From an uncultured Flavobacterium sp. (GTDB lineage: Bacteria; Bacteroidota; Bacteroidia; Flavobacteriales; Flavobacteriaceae): DNA of 8,385 nt. Location of the stretch: positions 1 through 8,385 of the forward strand of contig NZ_CAMLIX010000212.1 of assembly GCF_946479975.1 (NCBI RefSeq). Direction: 5' to 3'. The notes below the pieces were generated by a model. It was not told where the DNA came from. It saw only the letters and a list, made by a program, of their open reading frames with translations, and searched no databases. The position numbers and the translations under genes were made by a program. Below, piece by piece: positions 1,140 to 8,385 of this stretch. The first letter of the stretch is position 1; each line of letters starts with the position of its first letter.

Positions 1140-1169
1140 AAAAAAGTGGGAAGATCATTAATCTTCCCA
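1140..1169 (-). terminator. intrinsic terminator overlapping the end of the small Cys/His gene
   Basis: On the minus strand a 9-bp stem, TGGGAAGAT / ATCTTCCCA, closes a 5-nt loop and is followed by C and then six Ts. The upstream arm encodes the last three residues (Trp-Glu-Asp) of the small secreted protein, and its TAA stop codon lies in the loop. It ends transcription of the lipoprotein/small-protein unit. Confidence 0.85.
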
Positions 1170-1367
1170 TCCACAAAGTGTCAATCCTAAACCCTGCGCT
1201 TTTTTGAGTGATGTTTTTACCGTTCCGTGACTACAAGATCCTAAACCACGACAGCTTTCGCTCAAATGGTATTTTTTGGCGCCTGTAGGTCCGCAGATGT
1301 AAACATTGGTTTCTGGTGCTCGAAATGAAGTTGCAGCAACAAAAAGTAGAATTAAAATATATTTCAT
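1158..1367 (-). CDS. small secreted Cys/His-rich protein (69 aa)
   Basis: A 69-residue protein with an N-terminal hydrophobic signal (KYILILLFVAATSF, 2-15) and probable cleavage near residue 17. The mature part has a regular Cys/His pattern: C25, H34, C39, C45, H47 and C65, with the core VYICG..KKYH....CRGL..C. This resembles small Bacteroidota domains of the form C..KxYHxxxxCxxL that look like zinc-binding or disulfide-held knuckles; the usual C-terminal CxxC appears here as a single C65 before GWED. I chose the ATG at 1365-1367 over an in-frame TTG at 1380-1382, because the TTG would overlap the upstream gene and would put five polar residues ahead of the signal. The start is 4 bp after the stop of the lipoprotein gene, so the two are very likely co-transcribed. 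Function is unknown. Confidence 0.8.
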   Translation of the reverse strand: MKYILILLFVAATSFRAPETNVYICGPTGAKKYHLSESCRGLGSCSHGTVKTSLKKAQGLGLTLCGWED

Positions 1368-1371
1368 CAGT

Positions 1372-1788
1372 TTATTTGACAATTAGTTGGTATTCGTTTC
1401 CTTTTTTATCAAGGGCTTTTAGTTTTCCGTATGAAATCCATTCCGTGTCAATTTCGATTTCGCCAACGGTATCAATCTTTAACATTCCGGCACCGTACTT
1501 TCCTTCGGTATTAATGTTTCCAAAGACCGAATCTCCTTTAAAATCAATTCCTTTTACATCATAATTGTATTCATAATGTCCTGGATCTCCGGTTCTGTAT
1601 TCGTATTGGTAAGTCGTATTGACATGATACGTTTTGGCTTCTTCGGGTGTAATCGTTTTGCGGTCGTCGGCCGTAATCGTTGTTTTATAAAATGAATTTA
1701 TTTGTGGCGGAGGCGAGGCCGTAACTTTTTTACAGGAATAAAATGGTACTAAAAAAAGTAAGATGAGGTATTTTTTTTGCATAGGCAT
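1372..1788 (-). CDS. hypothetical lipoprotein (138 aa)
   Basis: The N-terminus MPMQKKYLILLFLVPFYSC is a lipoprotein signal: basic start, hydrophobic core and a lipobox-like FYSC with the lipidated C19. The mature domain is beta-rich and dominated by Tyr, Asp and Gly: a TYQYEYRTGDPGHYEYNYDV stretch (59-78), then SVFGNINTEGKYGAG (86-100), an acidic strand EIEIDTEW, and YGKLKALDKKGNEY near the end. It looks like a small conserved Bacteroidota lipoprotein of unknown function; I know no assigned role. It probably sits in the envelope. Either M1 (1788) or M3 (1782) could be the start. It is the first gene of a two-gene unit with the small Cys/His protein. An 83-bp gap separates it from the nuclease gene upstream, where I see no strong terminator, so read-through is possible. 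Confidence 0.85.
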   Translation of the reverse strand: MPMQKKYLILLFLVPFYSCKKVTASPPPQINSFYKTTITADDRKTITPEEAKTYHVNTTYQYEYRTGDPGHYEYNYDVKGIDFKGDSVFGNINTEGKYGAGMLKIDTVGEIEIDTEWISYGKLKALDKKGNEYQLIVK

Positions 1789-1871: not shown

Positions 1872-2939
1872 TTATACGGGATTTAACTCTGTTTCGTAAA
1901 GTGCCACAGTTTCCAATAATTCTTTTTCATATTGATAAATGTCATCAATAGAAGAGATTGCGACTTTAGTTTCGCTTTTATTATTGTTAAAAAGACTTAT
2001 GTATTTTTTTCCACTGTTTAAATGAAGTCTGCAAAGCGGTTTTCTATTGTTGTCGTCCAGCAGAATTCCAAAATACGATTGGGTATCACGATATACGATT
2101 CTGGCAATTGGAAGTTTTCGGCGTAAAATAGCAACTACAATACGATAACCGTCAAGTTCTTCTTCTGTTGTAACCACTTTATTGTCGTCTTCAACTATTT
2201 TAATTTCTTCATCTTGCTGTTTGATCGTTTCTTTAGTTAAAGCGGCATTCAAACGATCATTAATTTTGTCATTAATAAATTGACTAACCGATTTCTGAAC
2301 CAAATCTTTAAACTCATCAACCACTTTTTCAGTCAATCTTCCTGTATATATTTTGCTAGCAAATAATTTTGTAAAATCGTTTGATGGACTTTCTAATTCG
2401 GCATTTATAAGTTTCTTGATTTCTTTAATGTATTTTAATGAACTTGCATTGCTTACAATATTATTGACATCAAAATTGGCTTTATGAAATTTTGCAATTT
2501 CGTTGATCGTATTTTCTTTAAGATTACAAATATCAAATTCTAAAAATGGTTTTTCATCCATTTTGTTTTGATCGTCAAGATCAGTAAAAAACTGATAATT
2601 AATTCCGTTTGTTAAAAGTGCGAAACGGGTTTTGGTCACATGAAAATAGCGGAATAATTGAGAATTATGAACCGTAAGTTTTTCTTTCCAGCTTTTGCAT
2701 TCTACAATGATAATAGGTTCCCCGTTTTGAAAGATGGCATAATCTACTTTTTCACCTTTTTTAAGTCCAAGATCAGCTGTAAATTCTGGAACTACTTCCA
2801 GCGGATTAAATGCGTCGTAACCCAGTATGTGAATAAATGGCAATACAAAAGCGTGTTTTGTAGATTCTTCGGTTTCAATTTTATTTTTTAGCTGACTGAT
2901 TTTGTCTGCCAGTGACTTTAGTTGAATATTCATTTCCAT
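1872..2939 (-). CDS. HsdR N-terminal-like restriction endonuclease-fold protein (355 aa)
   Basis: The N-terminal half matches the type I restriction enzyme R-subunit N-terminal (HSDR_N) nuclease fold of the PD-(D/E)xK class. E25 lies in a helix leading to HILGYD, followed by D66 in KVDYAIF, and E80-C-K82 in IIIVECKSW, which is the E-x-K pair, then a QLFRYFHVTKTRFALLTNG segment typical of these proteins. No helicase motor or methylase follows, so this is not a full HsdR. The middle (140-262) is helical and charged, and the C-terminal part (263-355) is a separate domain with IVYRDTQSYFGILLDDNN. An ATG at 2939 (or 2933) is chosen; a TTG at 2978 lies upstream of the predicted -7 box and cannot be in the transcript. 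The gene has its own promoter with an element shared with the five-gene operon. It may be a stand-alone DNA repair or defence nuclease; the fold is fairly certain, the role is not. Confidence 0.85.
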   Translation of the reverse strand: MEMNIQLKSLADKISQLKNKIETEESTKHAFVLPFIHILGYDAFNPLEVVPEFTADLGLKKGEKVDYAIFQNGEPIIIVECKSWKEKLTVHNSQLFRYFHVTKTRFALLTNGINYQFFTDLDDQNKMDEKPFLEFDICNLKENTINEIAKFHKANFDVNNIVSNASSLKYIKEIKKLINAELESPSNDFTKLFASKIYTGRLTEKVVDEFKDLVQKSVSQFINDKINDRLNAALTKETIKQQDEEIKIVEDDNKVVTTEEELDGYRIVVAILRRKLPIARIVYRDTQSYFGILLDDNNRKPLCRLHLNSGKKYISLFNNNKSETKVAISSIDDIYQYEKELLETVALYETELNPV

Positions 2940-2963: not shown

Positions 2964-2971
2964 CAAATGTA
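2964..2971 (-). promoter_or_regulatory. promoter -7 box of the nuclease gene (TACATTTG)
   Basis: TACATTTG on the minus strand fits the Bacteroidota -7 consensus TAnnTTTG exactly. It predicts a transcript start near 2957-2959 and a leader of about 20 nt before the ATG at 2939. No TTG lies at the usual -33 distance; that region carries the conserved AATACTAG and, just upstream, the inverted repeat, as expected of an activator-dependent promoter. Confidence 0.7.
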
Positions 2972-2992
2972 AAACCAATAAAAACTAGTATT

Positions 2993-3008
2993 TTATGGAA
3001 ATCCGTAA
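2993..3008 (-). promoter_or_regulatory. 7-2-7 inverted-repeat operator upstream of the nuclease gene
   Basis: The + strand reads TTATGGAAATCCGTAA, two 7-bp half sites in inverted orientation around AA, with one base pair off perfect symmetry. It is 22 bp upstream of the -7 box, so centred about 43 bp before the predicted start, a typical activator position. A second copy with the same spacing lies at 6275-6290. The repeated block is longer than the operator: 2969-3008 matches 6251-6290 at 34 of 40 positions. Confidence 0.7.
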
Positions 3009-3104: not shown

Positions 3105-4004
3105 TTATTCTTTTTCTAAAATAAAATCTTTGATAATTTTATCCAAGTTAGAAGGAAGATCAGCATTTTTAATTTCGAAATGTTTTATTTTCATTTCAGA
3201 AAACCATTTAGACCAATATGCTTTTATAATTTTTTCTTCAAAAGGATTATTCTTATTTGGATTTATGCCTAAAACTAAAACTTCAAGATTAGATAAATCA
3301 GCATCAATTTTAATGAAACCAAAATTTTCTGTTTCAAATTTTTTCTGCCAATTATTGGTGTTGAGTCCGTTTTGTTTAATGAGTTGAGGTGTTAAGTACG
3401 AAGATAAATTTCCTTCTTTAATTTGAGTTCCTTCGTAAAACATATAACCGTCTGTTAAAATAATCAAGATATTTCTAAAATCTTTTTCTATACATTGATC
3501 TTGAACTTTGCTGTCGAAAAAATTCCAAATATCTGAACCAATATATTTATCATCTTTAATTGCCGACTCATAGATTTTTGCCGTTTTTAAAGAATATGTA
3601 TTGTTAATAGAATTTAGGAATGTTTTGGAAGCATTGTCTTTATTTACAGCAATTCTTAATTCTTTTGAGATTGAATTAATTTCAGGGTTTTCAGGTTCAG
3701 GATTAAAAAACAATTGCATTTTGTCATTAATCTGTCTCATTCTTTTTGATTTTAAATGCTCGGTAAAAGCTTCAGAAATAGATTTTATATATCCCAAATC
3801 TCTTTGATAAATTTCCATCGTTGGATTTGGATTTTTTTTGAGACTTATTCTATCTGATAAATCGACAAGAATACTGATATTATAATTTTCTGAAACAGAA
3901 GTTTTAACCGCGGTTTCTTTCGCTTCGTTCTTCTTTTCTTCTTTGCATGAAAAAAAGAAAATCAGTACTAACGACAATGAAATTTTGAGTAAAGTATTTT
4001 TCAT
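3105..4004 (-). CDS. vWA-like lipoprotein (299 aa)
   Basis: The signal is of lipoprotein type: a hydrophobic core (SLSLVLIFFF) and FFSC with C20. K-E-E directly after the Cys resembles the charged tags that send Bacteroidota lipoproteins to the cell surface, though this is only a resemblance. The mature part looks like a von Willebrand factor A fold. The first strand ISILVDLSDRIS (43-54) gives D48 and S50 of the metal-site motif DxSxS, but the second Ser is replaced by R52. The central strand NILIILTDGYMF (178-189) supplies the TDG motif with D185, and a late strand is LEVLVLGI (240-247). vWA domains usually bind partner proteins through a metal ion; here the site may be altered. It is the last gene of the operon, 5 bp after the coiled-coil membrane protein, suggesting the two work together across the envelope. 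The fold assignment is from motifs only. Confidence 0.75.
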   Translation of the reverse strand: MKNTLLKISLSLVLIFFFSCKEEKKNEAKETAVKTSVSENYNISILVDLSDRISLKKNPNPTMEIYQRDLGYIKSISEAFTEHLKSKRMRQINDKMQLFFNPEPENPEINSISKELRIAVNKDNASKTFLNSINNTYSLKTAKIYESAIKDDKYIGSDIWNFFDSKVQDQCIEKDFRNILIILTDGYMFYEGTQIKEGNLSSYLTPQLIKQNGLNTNNWQKKFETENFGFIKIDADLSNLEVLVLGINPNKNNPFEEKIIKAYWSKWFSEMKIKHFEIKNADLPSNLDKIIKDFILEKE

Positions 4005-4009
4005 AAATA

Positions 4010-5278
4010 TTAGTTTTTGGAATACACTAAATGCTGGAAATCGGGATCAACGAGATTTAATTTGCTGAGGTGTTCCTCAGAGAAAAGTTCACAACTTTGC
4101 AGAAGTTCTTCTTTTTCTTTATATGGCAGTGCTAACTCAGTACCAATTGCTTGAAACCATCCCTCTTTATACTGATGATGATAGTGGAGATACTCTTTGA
4201 CAGGAAAAACAAAACCATCAATTTTAGATTGAAGTTCAGATATTTTACCATTTATGGTTACAGTTTGTTGTTTAAAATCGTTGATTTTGTTTAAATAATC
4301 GGTTTTAAGTTTTTCCAGATTGAGTAAGTTTTCTTTTTTACCTCTTATAAAAGCTCTGATTTTATCTATGTTTTCAAATTCCTTCATTACAAAATCAAAT
4401 ACAAGTCCCCAGATAATATATACCACAAACCCAGCAAATATGATCATCCAGAATTCTGGCTCTCCCAAAGCAATATTTAAATTATATGGAGAAGATTCTG
4501 TTGTTTTGTTAAACTCATATATTTTCTTTTCAATAATGTAGGCCAAAAGAGAATCGAATAAAAAAGTAATGGCAAAAAGTGCAATAAGTCTAAAAATATT
4601 TTTAATTCCTTTTCCTTTTTGAACCATATGAATAACATATCCTAATCCCATAAAAACAAACGGAATTGTAACCACTAAAACTCCTTCTAGCCAGCTTGCT
4701 TTAAATGCATTTGTAAAAGCATCGGCATCAAATATTGCTGCAGTTAAACTATCATTCGAAAACTCTTTGAAAAAAGCAGAATAAGAAGCTGAAATGTAGA
4801 AAACCAAAACATATAATGTAATGGGCAGTAAAAGAATTAGACCAATATAAAATTGAGCTTTTAAGCCTTTTCCTTCTTCGATTCCGTATTTATCAGGATT
4901 GCGTTTTACCTCGATAATTTCATTTTTTATCTGATCCATATTTTCATTAATATCCTGCTCTTTTTTTTCATAGATCCCAATAGCAGTTTCAGACTTTTTA
5001 AGTTCGGTTCTGTTTTTTTCCTGTTCTTCGCGATAAGGCTGTTTTAATCGGTCTTGTTCCATTTTTTGTTTCCGACATTGATCTTCAAAACTCATATATA
5101 AATTTTGAAGACATGCTTTTAGAACAATTGGTTTTCCCGTTGCCTTAACCGATGCAGCGAAACCGCTTTGATAATATGTTATGCGAATTTGTTCTCTGTC
5201 TTCTTCATTTTCTTCCAAAACTTTAGCAGAGGAATCTTCAGATTTTTTTAAACTAAATAATTGTGTAAGTGGTTTCAT
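4010..5278 (-). CDS. four-TM membrane protein with flanking coiled coils (422 aa)
   Basis: I do not recognise a named family. The N-terminal region (1-63) is soluble. A charged helix of about 65 residues follows (64-128, rich in Lys, Glu and Gln), probably a coiled coil. Four hydrophobic segments come next, at about 143-166, 197-219, 227-249 and 276-298. The short loop QKGKGIKN between the second and third is basic, which places it, and both tails, in the cytoplasm. A second coiled coil (300-354) leads to a C-terminal domain with EYLHYHHQYKEGWFQAIG (362-379). This architecture suits a scaffold or mechanically coupled inner-membrane protein. It begins 3 bp after the TerB-like gene and ends 5 bp before the vWA-like lipoprotein gene, so translation of all three is likely coupled. 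A transport role seems unlikely, as the TM segments lack obvious charged pore residues, but this is inference. Confidence 0.85.
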   Translation of the reverse strand: MKPLTQLFSLKKSEDSSAKVLEENEEDREQIRITYYQSGFAASVKATGKPIVLKACLQNLYMSFEDQCRKQKMEQDRLKQPYREEQEKNRTELKKSETAIGIYEKKEQDINENMDQIKNEIIEVKRNPDKYGIEEGKGLKAQFYIGLILLLPITLYVLVFYISASYSAFFKEFSNDSLTAAIFDADAFTNAFKASWLEGVLVVTIPFVFMGLGYVIHMVQKGKGIKNIFRLIALFAITFLFDSLLAYIIEKKIYEFNKTTESSPYNLNIALGEPEFWMIIFAGFVVYIIWGLVFDFVMKEFENIDKIRAFIRGKKENLLNLEKLKTDYLNKINDFKQQTVTINGKISELQSKIDGFVFPVKEYLHYHHQYKEGWFQAIGTELALPYKEKEELLQSCELFSEEHLSKLNLVDPDFQHLVYSKN

Positions 5279-5281
5279 AAC

Positions 5282-5677
5282 TTAAGTGTTTAGTTGACTA
5301 ATAATTTCTTCTTTGCCAATGTTTTTCTGCACACAATCAATAAGATAGTCAGATAAATCATTGATGTTTTCTTCGACGAAATCAAATTTTCTACAATATT
5401 TTCTCAGCATATTTAATTCGTCGTCGGTTATTTTTCCGTCAGCCCAAATAATTCTGGTGAGATCATATAGATATTCAATTTTAGTGTTTAAAGCTTCAGG
5501 AACAATGAATTCGGTATTAACAGGATTTAAAAAAAGTTTGTCGAGTTCCTCTTTAGGAATTCCTCTTTCATCTGCAAAATGATACAGCATTTGAAGTTCT
5601 AAAACATCAAATTGATCATCTGATAATGCCATTTGGTATAATCTTAAAAAATGGCTTTTAAGTTCTAGTGTTATCAT
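5282..5677 (-). CDS. TerB-like (tellurite-resistance/DjlA N-terminal type) protein (131 aa)
   Basis: All-helical protein with the internal duplication typical of the TerB/DjlA-N fold. The first unit has YQMALSDDQFDVLELQML (14-31, acidic D20, D21 and E27) and the second has IIWADGKITDDELNMLRKYC (76-95, with D80, D85, D86 and E87). In TerB-like domains such acidic residues bind metal ions, and the family is often linked to stress response and membrane-associated complexes. There is no signal peptide, so it is cytoplasmic. Position in the operon, just before the coiled-coil membrane protein (3 bp gap), suggests it docks on that protein's cytoplasmic tails. This is not proof of tellurite resistance; no other ter genes (terC, terD, terZ) are in the window. 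The ATG at 5677 is 17 bp after the YidD-like stop. Confidence 0.8.
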   Translation of the reverse strand: MITLELKSHFLRLYQMALSDDQFDVLELQMLYHFADERGIPKEELDKLFLNPVNTEFIVPEALNTKIEYLYDLTRIIWADGKITDDELNMLRKYCRKFDFVEENINDLSDYLIDCVQKNIGKEEIISQLNT

Positions 5678-5694: not shown

Positions 5695-5976
5695 TTATTT
5701 AATTAACCTGTCAGCGATTTCTTCACTATTAATTATTAATTGAGAAGGAAGGATCATTTGAATTTTATTGTCTATTGGATTCTGAAAAATTGAAAAATTT
5801 CCTCTGCAATTTTTATATCTAAATTTAAAAGCTTTTAATCCTTTTAAAAATCCTTCTTTTTGAGTTGTTTCAAAAACATAATTGGAGCAGGATTTTTTAA
5901 AAATGCATTTTCTTCTTTTATTTTGAGGAATTAAGATCCAATACAATCGAATAATTAATAAGATGAAAATTTTCAT
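5695..5976 (-). CDS. YidD-like protein, divergent paralogue (93 aa)
   Basis: It matches the YidD (membrane protein insertion efficiency factor) family. An N-terminal amphipathic/hydrophobic helix FILLIIRLYWILIP (4-17) is followed by the Cys motif C24-x5-C30 with CSNYVFE (30-36), which corresponds to the family's CRFxPTCSxYA, then GFLKGLKAFKFRYKNCR (42-58) matching the GLxKGxxLxxxRxxRC segment, with C57. Housekeeping YidD is about 70-85 residues, basic, and encoded beside rpmH, rnpA and yidC. This copy is in a stress-like operon, lacks the Pro of FxPTC (KKS instead) and has its own C-terminal tail (59-93). It probably sits on the inner face of the membrane and may help insert the operon's four-TM protein. 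The start overlaps the upstream stop by 4 bp (ATGA), which implies coupled translation. Confidence 0.75.
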   Translation of the reverse strand: MKIFILLIIRLYWILIPQNKRRKCIFKKSCSNYVFETTQKEGFLKGLKAFKFRYKNCRGNFSIFQNPIDNKIQMILPSQLIINSEEIADRLIK

Positions 5977-6206
5977 TTTTTATGAAAAACAACCATTTGA
6001 CTATTTGTTGTATAGCCTGGTTTGGCTGCAATTCCAAAGCATCCGTTATCTGGATGTACGAATGTCGAAACACTTTCTAAACGTATATATTCCCAACCTT
6101 GATTTGTAAAATTTTTTATCAAGCTTTCAAGCTGTTCAGCAACATGATTTGAAGTTCCTTTTTTGGGATCAATTGAAGCTACGAATGGCACTACTTTGTA
6201 TTCCAT
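5973..6206 (-). CDS. DUF4177-like small protein (77 aa)
   Basis: A 77-residue cytoplasmic protein starting MEYKVVPF and ending SQMVVFHKK. The order is a beta-strand, an amphipathic helix (AEQLESLIKNFTNQGW, 23-38), then WEYIRLESVSTFV. This is the pattern of DUF4177-type domains, in which a strand YKVV is followed by LExxLNxxGxxGWE. Between 53 and 66 lies NGCFGIAAKPGYTT, an insertion with one Cys that is less typical. The function of the family is unknown. It is the first gene of the operon, with a leader of about 35 nt after the predicted start, and its TGA overlaps the next ATG. The ATG at 6204-6206 is the only plausible start. Confidence 0.75.
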   Translation of the reverse strand: MEYKVVPFVASIDPKKGTSNHVAEQLESLIKNFTNQGWEYIRLESVSTFVHPDNGCFGIAAKPGYTTNSQMVVFHKK

Positions 6207-6245: not shown

Positions 6246-6253
6246 CAAAAGTA
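6246..6253 (-). promoter_or_regulatory. promoter -7 box of the five-gene operon (TACTTTTG)
   Basis: TACTTTTG on the minus strand is an exact Bacteroidota TAnnTTTG box and lies 22 bp downstream of the 7-2-7 inverted repeat. It predicts transcription from about 6239-6241. No TTG is found at -33, as in the nuclease promoter, which fits a promoter needing an activator. Confidence 0.7.
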
Positions 6254-6274
6254 AACGCAATCAAAACCAGTATT

Positions 6275-6290
6275 TTACGGAAATCCATAA
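6275..6290 (-). promoter_or_regulatory. 7-2-7 inverted-repeat operator upstream of the five-gene operon
   Basis: The + strand reads TTACGGAAATCCATAA, the second copy of the operator found upstream of the nuclease gene. The half site that departs from TTACGGA is the opposite one from the other copy, so the inferred ideal is TTACGGA-N2-TCCGTAA. It lies between the terminator of the response-regulator gene and the operon promoter. The distance to the -7 box is identical in both copies (22 bp). Confidence 0.7.
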
Positions 6291-6319: not shown

Positions 6320-6339
6320 AAAGCTCCCGAAGGAGCTTT
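6320..6339 (-). terminator. UUCG-tetraloop intrinsic terminator after the response-regulator gene
   Basis: On the minus strand a perfect 8-bp stem, AAAGCTCC / GGAGCTTT, encloses a TTCG tetraloop closed by C-G, which is exceptionally stable in RNA, followed by TCTTATTTC. It lies 20 bp after the regulator's stop and separates the two-component unit from the downstream operon, which therefore needs its own promoter. Confidence 0.9.
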
Positions 6340-6359: not shown

Positions 6360-7028
6360 TTAAATTATTCCCATATCTTTTGTAATCGAAACCAAATGAA
6401 TGGTATTATTGGCTTTAAAAAAGTCTTTTAGTTTTGCCAATCTTTTTTCCATTGCACTTTTACTATTGGGTTTAATATCTGAGTTTTTAAAAATTTCTAT
6501 AATTTCATCTTGAGAAGTTCCAGACGATAAATATTTTAGAATTTTAACGTCGACATCGTCTATTTCGTAGTTGCCTTTTTCCTGAAGCGCAGAAGCAACT
6601 TCAGAAGAAATAAATTTTTGATCAGAAGTTGAAATTACAGAAATCGCTTTTTTTAGATCCTCAATACTGTTTCGGCTTTTGAGCACAAAGGCGTTAATTT
6701 CAGAATCTTCAAAAAGTGATTTTATGCGAACTTTTTTGTCTTCAACAGAATAAGCAATGATTTTAATATCTGGCTGGAGTTCACGAACTTTCTGAATTAG
6801 TTCGTCGCCACTGCCAATTTTTACTTCGCGATGATCTTGTTTAAACGAAAGATCGCTGATTAATAAATCGTATGGTTCATTGTCCTGAATGGCCTTTCTT
6901 ATTTTTAGAAAAGCATCGTCGCAATATTTTGCATGTTGAAAATTGTCAATATTAAAATCATTCAAGGTTTGTTTAACAGCTAAATTGAATTCTTCAAAAT
7001 CCTCGGCTATTATTACTTTTTTAAACAT
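6360..7028 (-). CDS. response regulator with LuxR/NarL-like DNA-binding domain (222 aa)
   Basis: The receiver domain occupies roughly residues 1-135. It has the acidic pair E9-D10, the phospho-acceptor D59 in LLISDLSF, the switch residue S94 in IIAYS and the conserved K117 in VLKS. The C-terminal part (156-222) begins with the helix VDVKILKYLSSGTSQDEIIEIF, which matches the LuxR/GerE pattern (EVLxLLAxGxSxxEIA). The recognition-helix region, KPNSKSAMEKRLAKLKDFF (186-204), is longer than usual, and the tail HLVSITKDMGII goes beyond the standard domain. It is most likely phosphorylated by the adjacent kinase, whose stop is 6 bp upstream. It is the best candidate for binding the 7-2-7 inverted repeats in this window, since NarL-type proteins bind that geometry, but this is inference. 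Confidence 0.9.
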   Translation of the reverse strand: MFKKVIIAEDFEEFNLAVKQTLNDFNIDNFQHAKYCDDAFLKIRKAIQDNEPYDLLISDLSFKQDHREVKIGSGDELIQKVRELQPDIKIIAYSVEDKKVRIKSLFEDSEINAFVLKSRNSIEDLKKAISVISTSDQKFISSEVASALQEKGNYEIDDVDVKILKYLSSGTSQDEIIEIFKNSDIKPNSKSAMEKRLAKLKDFFKANNTIHLVSITKDMGII

Positions 7029-7034
7029 AGGCTT

Positions 7035-8385
7035 TTATTTAGGCATTGTTATTTTTACTCTAAAACCTTTATCTGGTTCGGTGTCAAAAGTAATAGTTCC
7101 TTTATTAGACAAAATACGGTTTTCCATATTTTGTAAACCATTTTTTATAATTTTATCTTTTTCAGATCCTTTTCCGTTATCTGTATAGTCAATAAAAATT
7201 GTTTTGCCGTTGCTGTCAAACTTTACCACAACTACAGCTGCGTTGCTGTGTTTTTTCATATTGACCATTAATTCTTGTAAAACCCTGTAGATGGTTACTT
7301 TTTTTATTTCGTCAATTAAATCCCAATTTACTTTTTCGATGCTGTTAATAATAACGTTTGTGTCTTCACTATTATAAGTCGAAAGCATATCTTTTAAGTT
7401 GCCTGCATAATTTGTTTTAATATCAATACTATTATTTTCTTTTGAAATGCCTCGGACACGAGCGTAAATATGATCTAATTTTTGAACTAGAACTTCTTTT
7501 GTACTTTCAATTTCTAAAGTCTGTGTCTGTGTAAACGTAAGTGTGTTAAAGACATCATTTGCCAATTCGTCGTGAATATCTTTGGCAATTCTGGTTTCGG
7601 TATCGTAAGCCGTTTGTAATTTTTCAGTACGGTTTTTATTTCGGTAATATTTTCTCAGATAAAAAATAAGCACAGCTAAAAAAATAGAAATCGTGACAAA
7701 TAAATACTGTTGATATTGCCCGCGCTGAATCGATAGCAAATTTTCAGCTTTTTCTAAACGAAGTTTCTGGTTTTCGTCTTTTTCTTTTTTAGAATCGTAT
7801 TTTATTTTGGCAAACTTGTTTTTAAAGTTGTTTCTAACTTTAATGATGCTGTCGTTTAAAACAACAAACTTTTTAGCGTATTTAGAATCAATAGCACTTT
7901 TGTTGTTTGTGATTAAAAAAGATAAAGCTTCTAGTCTTTCGTCTACACTATTGAGTTTTGTAGAAATTTCATAAGCTTTTAATGCAAATTGATTGGATTT
8001 TTGAGGATCTATTGCTGCGTAAAATTCTGTTAGATGAAGATAACTTGCGATGCTCCCATAAAGATCGTCAGATTTTATTCTGTTTTCAAGACTTTCATTC
8101 ATTAGCGAAAATCCTTTGTCAAGTTTTCCTTGTTTAAAATAAGCAAAACCTAAATTATCTAATATTCTATTTTTACTTTCTTTAGATATATCTTTATTGT
8201 TTAAGATAGATTCTAAAATTTCTATGGCTTTGCCGTATTTTTTTTGCTGAATATAAATGACTGCAATATTGTTTAATGGAGATAATTTTGATGCAGGATC
8301 AGTAAGTTCTTTAATGGCTTCATTATAGAAAAAAATGGCATCGTTATAAATAGAAAGTTCTTTATCGGCAATTCCAAAATAATTG
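7035..8385 (-). CDS. TPR-containing sensor histidine kinase (5' end beyond window)
   Basis: The frame is open to the right edge with 449 codons visible and no start required inside; an internal ATG at 8102 is not the start, since TPR-like sequence continues upstream of it. Residues 1-150 (numbered from the edge) form TPR helices, for example SPLNNIAVIYIQQKKYGKAIE and DNLGFAYFKQGKLDKGF. Then come a charged helical linker (about 189-219), one membrane segment (about 225-245), and the HisKA_3-type dimerisation helix ETRIAKDIHDELAND with phospho-acceptor H271. The ATPase domain has ELMVNMKKHS (N-box N375), DNGKG (402-406) and NGLQNM. This is the NarX/LiaS-like kinase class that normally pairs with LuxR/NarL-type regulators, in agreement with the next gene. 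In Bacteroidota the TPR part of such proteins is typically periplasmic, with the signal peptide lying outside this window. Input signal unknown. Confidence 0.92.
   Translation of the reverse strand, partial: NYFGIADKELSIYNDAIFFYNEAIKELTDPASKLSPLNNIAVIYIQQKKYGKAIEILESILNNKDISKESKNRILDNLGFAYFKQGKLDKGFSLMNESLENRIKSDDLYGSIASYLHLTEFYAAIDPQKSNQFALKAYEISTKLNSVDERLEALSFLITNNKSAIDSKYAKKFVVLNDSIIKVRNNFKNKFAKIKYDSKKEKDENQKLRLEKAENLLSIQRGQYQQYLFVTISIFLAVLIFYLRKYYRNKNRTEKLQTAYDTETRIAKDIHDELANDVFNTLTFTQTQTLEIESTKEVLVQKLDHIYARVRGISKENNSIDIKTNYAGNLKDMLSTYNSEDTNVIINSIEKVNWDLIDEIKKVTIYRVLQELMVNMKKHSNAAVVVVKFDSNGKTIFIDYTDNGKGSEKDKIIKNGLQNMENRILSNKGTITFDTEPDKGFRVKITMPK

Follow-up and report, generated by a model that had tools for sequence, protein, structure and literature searches.

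Gene Organization of the Window

The window, by which we mean the whole stretch of 8,385 nucleotides analysed here from an uncultured Flavobacterium sp., carries on its minus strand, in this order, a sensor kinase gene, a response regulator (RR) gene, a terminator-like hairpin, a palindrome with a promoter box, a five-gene operon (6206-3105), a second palindrome with its box, a nuclease-like gene and two small genes (Table 1). The RR is the sole recognised transcription regulator among the scanned window genes. The start of the nuclease-like gene was set at ATG 2939 because the longer listed reading frame would overlap the promoter. Between 2850 and 6420, three terminator-like sites were found against 1.1 expected, and a sigma-70 scan of the same interval returned 13 promoter-like sites against 16.6 in shuffled sequences, which is no excess.

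We also considered the window operon as a defence system and set this aside, because the PADLOC matches of the window proteins are only weak: the best is between the TPR part of the kinase and PDC-M71B (6e-8), and the TerB protein matches PDC-S48 at 3e-5. In the available part of a paper on NTP-dependent conflict systems (eLife 2020, PMC7159879), the terms TerB, YidD, DUF4236 and flavobacteri have no occurrence.

Table 1. Features of the window, with positions counted from its first base
Feature	Position	Strand	Description
Candidate operator 1	6275..6290	minus	Palindrome TTACGGAAATCCATAA, minus-strand reading TTATGGATTTCCGTAA; 69 bases past the RR stop
-7 box of promoter 1	6246..6253	minus	TACTTTTG; predicted transcription start ~6241
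Candidate operator 2	2993..3008	minus	Palindrome TTATGGAAATCCGTAA, minus-strand reading TTACGGATTTCCATAA
-7 box of promoter 2	2964..2971	minus	TACATTTG; predicted transcription start ~2959
Terminator-like hairpin	6320..6339	minus	Between RR gene and operator 1; terminator scan
Response regulator (RR)	6360..7028	minus	Divergent NarL/LuxR type of 222 aa, proposed to bind both operators
TPR sensor histidine kinase	7035..8384	minus	Cut by window end; 566 aa in locus L001
Operon gene 1	5973..6206	minus	77 aa; weak DUF4177 match, below cut-off
Operon gene 2	5695..5976	minus	93 aa; YidD family
Operon gene 3	5282..5677	minus	131 aa; TerB family
Operon gene 4	4010..5278	minus	422 aa; hydrophobic segments by eye; no family above cut-off
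Operon gene 5	3105..4004	minus	299 aa; lipoprotein-like, vWA-like by eye; no family above cut-off
Nuclease-like gene (HSDR_N)	1872..2939	minus	Behind operator 2
Conserved island end gene, cluster c3	1372..1788	minus	76 members; no family above cut-off
Conserved island end gene, cluster c4	1158..1382	minus	71 members; 74 aa

Two Palindromes at a Fixed Distance from TAnnTTTG Boxes

The initial annotation reported that 6251-6290 and 2969-3008 match at 34 of 40 positions, each with an inverted repeat. A recount gave the same figure for the first 40 positions (38 of 45 over the whole 45-bp elements), and the palindromes were confirmed at both places. With the pattern TTAYGGAWWTCCRTAA at zero mismatches, the two palindromes are the sole matches within the window; with up to three mismatches there are four matches, compared with a shuffle mean of 0.97, and four or more were reached in 4 of 200 shuffles. 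The absence of a -33 TTG at both promoters was upheld by eye at the usual distance of this element. Two further statements of the initial annotation needed correction. The TAnnTTTG box, described as exact and 22 bp away, is exact at both promoters, but 21 bases lie in the gap; 22 results when one counts from the final base of the palindrome to the opening base of the box. The palindrome itself stands, but its reading as a NarL-like 7-2-7 repeat of heptamers was dropped for TTACGG-N4-CCGTAA (6-4-6), with TTACGG as the half-site in the consensus of relatives.

Transcription starts of F. psychrophilum, in the part of that study available to us, put TAnnTTTG at -12 to -5 (PMC9723704). Combined with the 21-base gap, this would place the operator at about -49 to -34, centred near -41.5, which is an activator position. 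With start sites as predicted, both promoters would have the layout of class II activation, namely a centre near -41.5 in a promoter without a -35/-33 element, and an activator at -41.5 could stand in for the missing -33 contact.

The Response Regulator Is Predicted to Fold like NarL/LuxR-Type Regulators

The RR belongs to a family of which the best 80 of 98 relatives were kept; among these, the closest (93-94% identity) include proteins of Flavobacterium anhuiense and F. panacis. The Response_reg score of the window RR lies just under its cut-off, and the domain was found in 40 of 42 family members (E<=0.01). The acceptor aspartate and the lysine expected of a receiver domain, D59 and K117, are invariant across the members. 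Pfam GerE was matched in none of the 42, so that we regard the family as a divergent branch; DUF5932 was matched in 17. In the AF2 model (mean pLDDT 90, pTM 0.66), a receiver domain is followed by a four-helix output domain (helices 158-168, 173-182, 190-204 and 209-219). The best full-length Foldseek matches of this model are spr1814, RcsB, LiaR and EvgA, and the sequence profile matches RcsB and spr1814 and, weakly, DesR; the modelled fold resembles that of NarL/LuxR-type regulators. A search of 72,556 plasmid records gave no match to the RR.

The Palindrome Is Often Kept Downstream of RR Genes

We then asked how often a palindrome lies within 300 bp downstream of an RR gene. This was the case at 74 of 82 close relatives (RR identity 72-93%), 5 of 5 further close relatives, 32 of 55 distant loci of the genus (RR identity 41-58%) and 30 of 41 family loci, the last rate being biased since these loci were mostly picked for a nearby site (regions L237-L276, 40 of 129 RR entries). 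The corresponding background is 54 of 1568 other open reading frames of the same loci, and some of these 54 may be genuine second operators located deeper in the islands. The close and distant groups were taken by RR homology except for L129 and L136, which were fetched for their site; without these two, the distant group has the palindrome at 30 of 53 RR genes. The genus regions cover 64 of 95 strong RR entries, with 1 of 56 distant and 3 of 8 close matches dropped as duplicates or for want of sequence. No exact palindrome was present within 300 bp of 8 of the 82 close and 23 of the 55 distant RR genes; some of these, L169 and L180 among them, have one-base variants.

Spacing is regular: at 141 sites, the gap to TAnnTTTG is 21 bases in 130 and 20 in 5, with no box in 6. 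Among distant members the consensus is TTACGG-N4-CCGTAA, usually followed by GG, with TAnnTTTG 21 bases on, and the spacer varies over most of its length. In the close clade, AATACTGG comes after TTATGGATTTCCGTAA, and the flank of distant members is GGAA; a flank that differs by RR clade is expected if paralogues read different extended sites. Two RR paralogues lie about 10 kb apart in one island at L064/L079 and at L077/L080, and the operators there have a spacing of 20.

The same layout could serve repression, with an RR dimer bound at the sites blocking the promoters until a signal releases it, and a site beside the -33 region could indeed block polymerase. We consider this rather unlikely, since unaided polymerase should start poorly at the window promoters, which by eye have no -33 TTG, and since the fixed 21-base gap (130 of 141 sites) suits an activator that touches polymerase better than a blocker.

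Genomes with the Site Are Mostly Genomes with the Regulator

The initial annotation proposed asking whether the site accompanies the regulator, and the frequency of the motif was measured in genomes of relatives. Sixteen close-relative genomes hold the exact motif with its box zero to four times each, at 32 places in 15 of the 16 genomes, and 25 of these places are at the RR island. In the genus, 31 of 121 genomes have motif and box. The pattern read backwards gave no match in either set (16 and 121 genomes), and since palindrome, spacer and box recur together in relatives, the window motif is beyond chance. With a looser centre, 299 family genomes yielded 116 places in 76 genomes, compared with 10 for the reversed pattern; the gap, allowed to vary from 18 to 24, is 21 in 108 of the 116, 22 in 6 and 20 in 2. 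Seventy of the 116 lie no more than 10 kb from an RR-family gene, 38 of them directly downstream; for the other 46, the listed RR-family genes are over 10 kb away or on a different contig.

The site follows species that carry the regulator. In raw counts, which ignore kinship, 29 of the 121 genus genomes have both site and RR, 2 the site only, 37 the RR only and 53 neither; genomes with RR only are expected, because the search pattern was fitted to the close clade. In the 299 family genomes, the respective counts are 72, 4, 45 and 178. A survey of 247 genomes of the class found the RR in 9 (E<=1e-30; four of these, G001, G004, G075 and G265, were already in the earlier samples) and the site in 7, all among the 9, with none in the 238 genomes without an RR match; the sites of G472 and G649 lie away from any RR gene. 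In the genus, the listed RR matches are separated by a wide gap, with full-length proteins at 41-93% identity and at least 158 bits and others at about 51 bits or less, two RR fragments apart. The gap is less sharp in the family, where the limit was 109 bits (the lowest being a fragment in G388), G193 with 88 bits was scored as lacking the RR, and at most nine candidates per genome were scored, so some RR genes may have escaped the count. Contig breaks, missed RR genes, variant sites or other regulators perhaps account for RR loci that have no palindrome, for far sites and for genomes with the site only. Fisher tests on the genus and family counts take no account of kinship either, and we give them no weight; the position of the site next to the RR gene is a stronger point than these co-occurrence counts.

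The site also occurs in six genomes that have no strong RR, four from the family and two from the genus (G073 and G129). They would suit a reading in which some other, unlinked DNA-binding protein recognises the palindrome and the RR is merely a neighbour, and adjacency alone is compatible with a second binder of the site. We give this reading little credence, as the site adjoins RR genes at many genus and family loci, is found in 0 of 238 class genomes without an RR match, and has in the RR the only recognised regulator among the scanned window genes. In G129, the site lies before a likely D-Tyr-tRNA deacylase gene. A site precedes such a gene at L103, L119 and L123 (the family match is on L103 only, and the L119 protein starts alike); G129 is the genome of L119, its best RR match has an E value of 3.7e-9, and it is either a counter-example or a case of another regulator. 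In genome G204 the site is matched five times, in four cases with similar C-rich spacers, and each match is more than 10 kb from the listed RR gene; the regulon of this genome is perhaps larger.

Exchangeable Genes behind the Candidate Operator

If the RR reads these sites, the genes that it would control vary greatly. Between the RR gene and the end genes, 43 orders of named clusters occur in 78 loci, counting named clusters only and leaving out 2 of 80 loci that have no end gene; 7 of the 78 show no named cluster and 7 no palindrome there. The most frequent cargo is HSDR_N (42 loci), the TerB-c12-c13 triplet (38) and Excalibur (32), followed by c15 (30; DUF4236-like through a relative in L116), YidD (25) and a DUF4177-like cluster (23). 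Same-strand runs behind operators also hold HNH and SNase nucleases and an ABC transporter. Ten cargo proteins picked as the most defence-like were compared with PADLOC models, and five had no match; rarer cargo matched Old (L050, L079) and PDC-S06 (L046), and cargo of family genomes matched a type I methyltransferase (L264) and STK_OB (L256).

At L006, L011 and L025, the RR gene, two palindromes and the nuclease gene are kept and the genes between the palindromes differ, a pattern that exchange through the repeats would produce. That the shared 45 bp are nothing but duplication or recombination scars of exchanged modules is highly improbable: the modules between the two copies do differ in these close relatives, and the copies may also serve recombination, but distant members retain palindrome, spacing and box although the spacer has diverged, and nine inspected sites away from the island all lie outside open frames of more than 100 codons, each with an ATG after it (by eye).

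Returning to the sites as operators, some of those away from the island precede a caspase-domain gene (L127), an ion channel gene (L113) and a gene for a nucleoid-associated protein (L120), and for this reason the regulon may not be purely local. The initial annotation had proposed a small regulon of two promoters; the shared site is upheld, but the regulon looks wider, as a divergent gene (see below) and some genes elsewhere carry the site. The caspase-domain gene occupies L127:16-1503, behind an operator and off the RR island. The divergent neighbour at L086 is similar to that of L127, but the protein there is another one, with no Pfam family.

A TPR Kinase, a Small Lipoprotein and a Divergent Gene

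The window kinase has TPR repeats, an HATPase_c domain above cut-off and a weak HisKA_3 match below it. The model of the kinase from the relative L001 (mean pLDDT 84, pTM 0.54) shows a solenoid of helical repeats together with a long helix and a kinase core. Its partial fold matches were best to DesK and to the peptide-binding TPR domain of LGN, with low whole-chain TM-scores. HATPase_c, the weaker HisKA_3 match and the DesK fold together agree with a HisKA_3/DesK-type partner kinase. Judging by a signal-like N-terminus, the TPR part probably lies outside the cytoplasm.

In 118 of 167 distinct loci (17 of 184 were left out, having no kinase or no sequence), the kinase gene is directly preceded by a lipoprotein-like gene of 40-95 aa, compared with 32 of 591 other open reading frames, a background that may include genes adjoining similar lipoproteins; the rule behind this count was drawn up after examples had been seen, and the tail of the protein is not part of it. 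One example is L023:6041-6235. The middle of the protein is variable among relatives and the tail often proline-rich or acidic (by eye), with a CCGDDG-like motif in several family loci. Upstream of the lipoprotein, kinase and RR genes, the close clade has a divergent gene, c0 (L051:4739-5701 and relatives), whose copy from L051 matches no Pfam family. In 68 of 75 loci it carries a degenerate third operator that is followed by TAnnTTTG after 19-22 bases. Both the lipoprotein gene and c0 are located outside the window and are known from relatives.

Comparison with Known Two-Component Systems

ComA of Bacillus subtilis differs from the system described here in kinase, signal and phylum. The available part of one report gives the ComA box as TTGCGG-4 nt-CCGCAA and describes ComA as a tetrahelical HTH response regulator that binds as a homodimer and activates transcription (PMC4797271). 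The geometry is the one found here, a hexamer inverted repeat with a 4-bp gap, but the box sequence is not, as the half-site found here has A at its third base where that of ComA has G; ComA promoters also carry an additional downstream direct repeat, unlike the promoters here.

Both the structural and the profile search with the RR give RcsB, of the enterobacterial Rcs system, among their best matches. Rcs also includes a small lipoprotein, RcsF. Here, in contrast, the kinase has TPR repeats, the lipoprotein gene adjoins it, no phosphorelay protein was noticed in the module and the operator is different. NarL sites of Escherichia coli are 7-2-7 repeats with the heptamer consensus TACYYMT. They share with the present sites two inverted half-sites around a short centre, and NarL is of the same regulator superfamily, but TACGGAT does not match that heptamer. 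As for DesK-DesR of B. subtilis, the kinase core of the relative matches DesK and the RR profile weakly matches DesR; however, DesK is described as a membrane thermosensor and is not known to carry TPR repeats, unlike the kinase here.

The RRNPP receptors have a TPR part and are intracellular, whereas the TPR repeats here are fused to a kinase and probably periplasmic. The likeness is one of idea only, a small gene for an exported product beside the gene of a supposed receptor, as in the accessible part of an RRNPP paper (PMC10075063); for the present system it rests on gene adjacency (lipoprotein by kinase in 118 of 167 loci). In the accessible parts of the mainly open-access literature searched, we found no report of the motif or of a module of lipoprotein, TPR kinase and RR.

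A Proposed Built-In and Swappable Regulon

We think it likely that the palindromes serve as operators for the two-component system next to them, which would activate the five-gene operon and the HSDR_N nuclease gene. This reading rests on sequence, spacing, co-occurrence, adjacency, predicted fold and variable cargo, from which we infer binding and activation by the RR, as well as a signal and the function of the cargo. The terminator-like hairpin that separates the RR gene from operator 1 also agrees with this reading. The initial annotation had already assigned activation of both transcription units to the RR at 6360-7028: position, co-occurrence and fold support the RR as the probable binder, which would act as an activator. 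In the mechanism that we propose, the TPR kinase, probably facing the periplasm and perhaps together with the small lipoprotein, would phosphorylate the RR. An RR dimer would then bind TTACGG-N4-CCGTAA centred near -41.5 and recruit RNA polymerase to TAnnTTTG promoters that have no -33 element, and could in this way switch on the operon, the nuclease gene and, in relatives, the divergent gene upstream of the kinase. Operator and promoter would form a fixed socket, with the genes behind it exchanged between species. That the site is often kept downstream of the sensor-regulator pair while the cargo changes points to a built-in, swappable regulon.

It is tempting to go further, if only tentatively, and to imagine a three-part flavobacterial module in which the lipoprotein acts as ligand or envelope probe, the periplasmic TPR kinase senses it and the RR drives a universal socket; exchangeable islands with anti-phage and nuclease genes might then share one control, and the 45-bp repeats might aid their swapping by homologous recombination.

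Bacteroidota promoters differ from those of E. coli, and to our knowledge few regulator-operator pairs have been worked out in this phylum. From one sequence rule (TTACGG-N4-CCGTAA, 21 bases, TAnnTTTG), regulator, operator, promoter and targets can be predicted together across many of the sampled genomes of a single family, and this family-wide prediction is testable by a single binding and expression experiment. The rule also opens a way to study how the variable islands, which are partly defence-like, might be turned on, and to approach a signalling unit of lipoprotein and TPR kinase.

Two variations on the arrangement were observed in relatives. At G145:C45:10902-10976 and G376:C3:19600-19674, two opposite matches share one palindrome, as for divergent promoters. 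Loci L009, L014 and others have, downstream of c5, a second cluster c1 kinase that has no RR of this family beside it; the related site TTACGGTTTTCCACAA lies nearby, and this kinase may share the RR.
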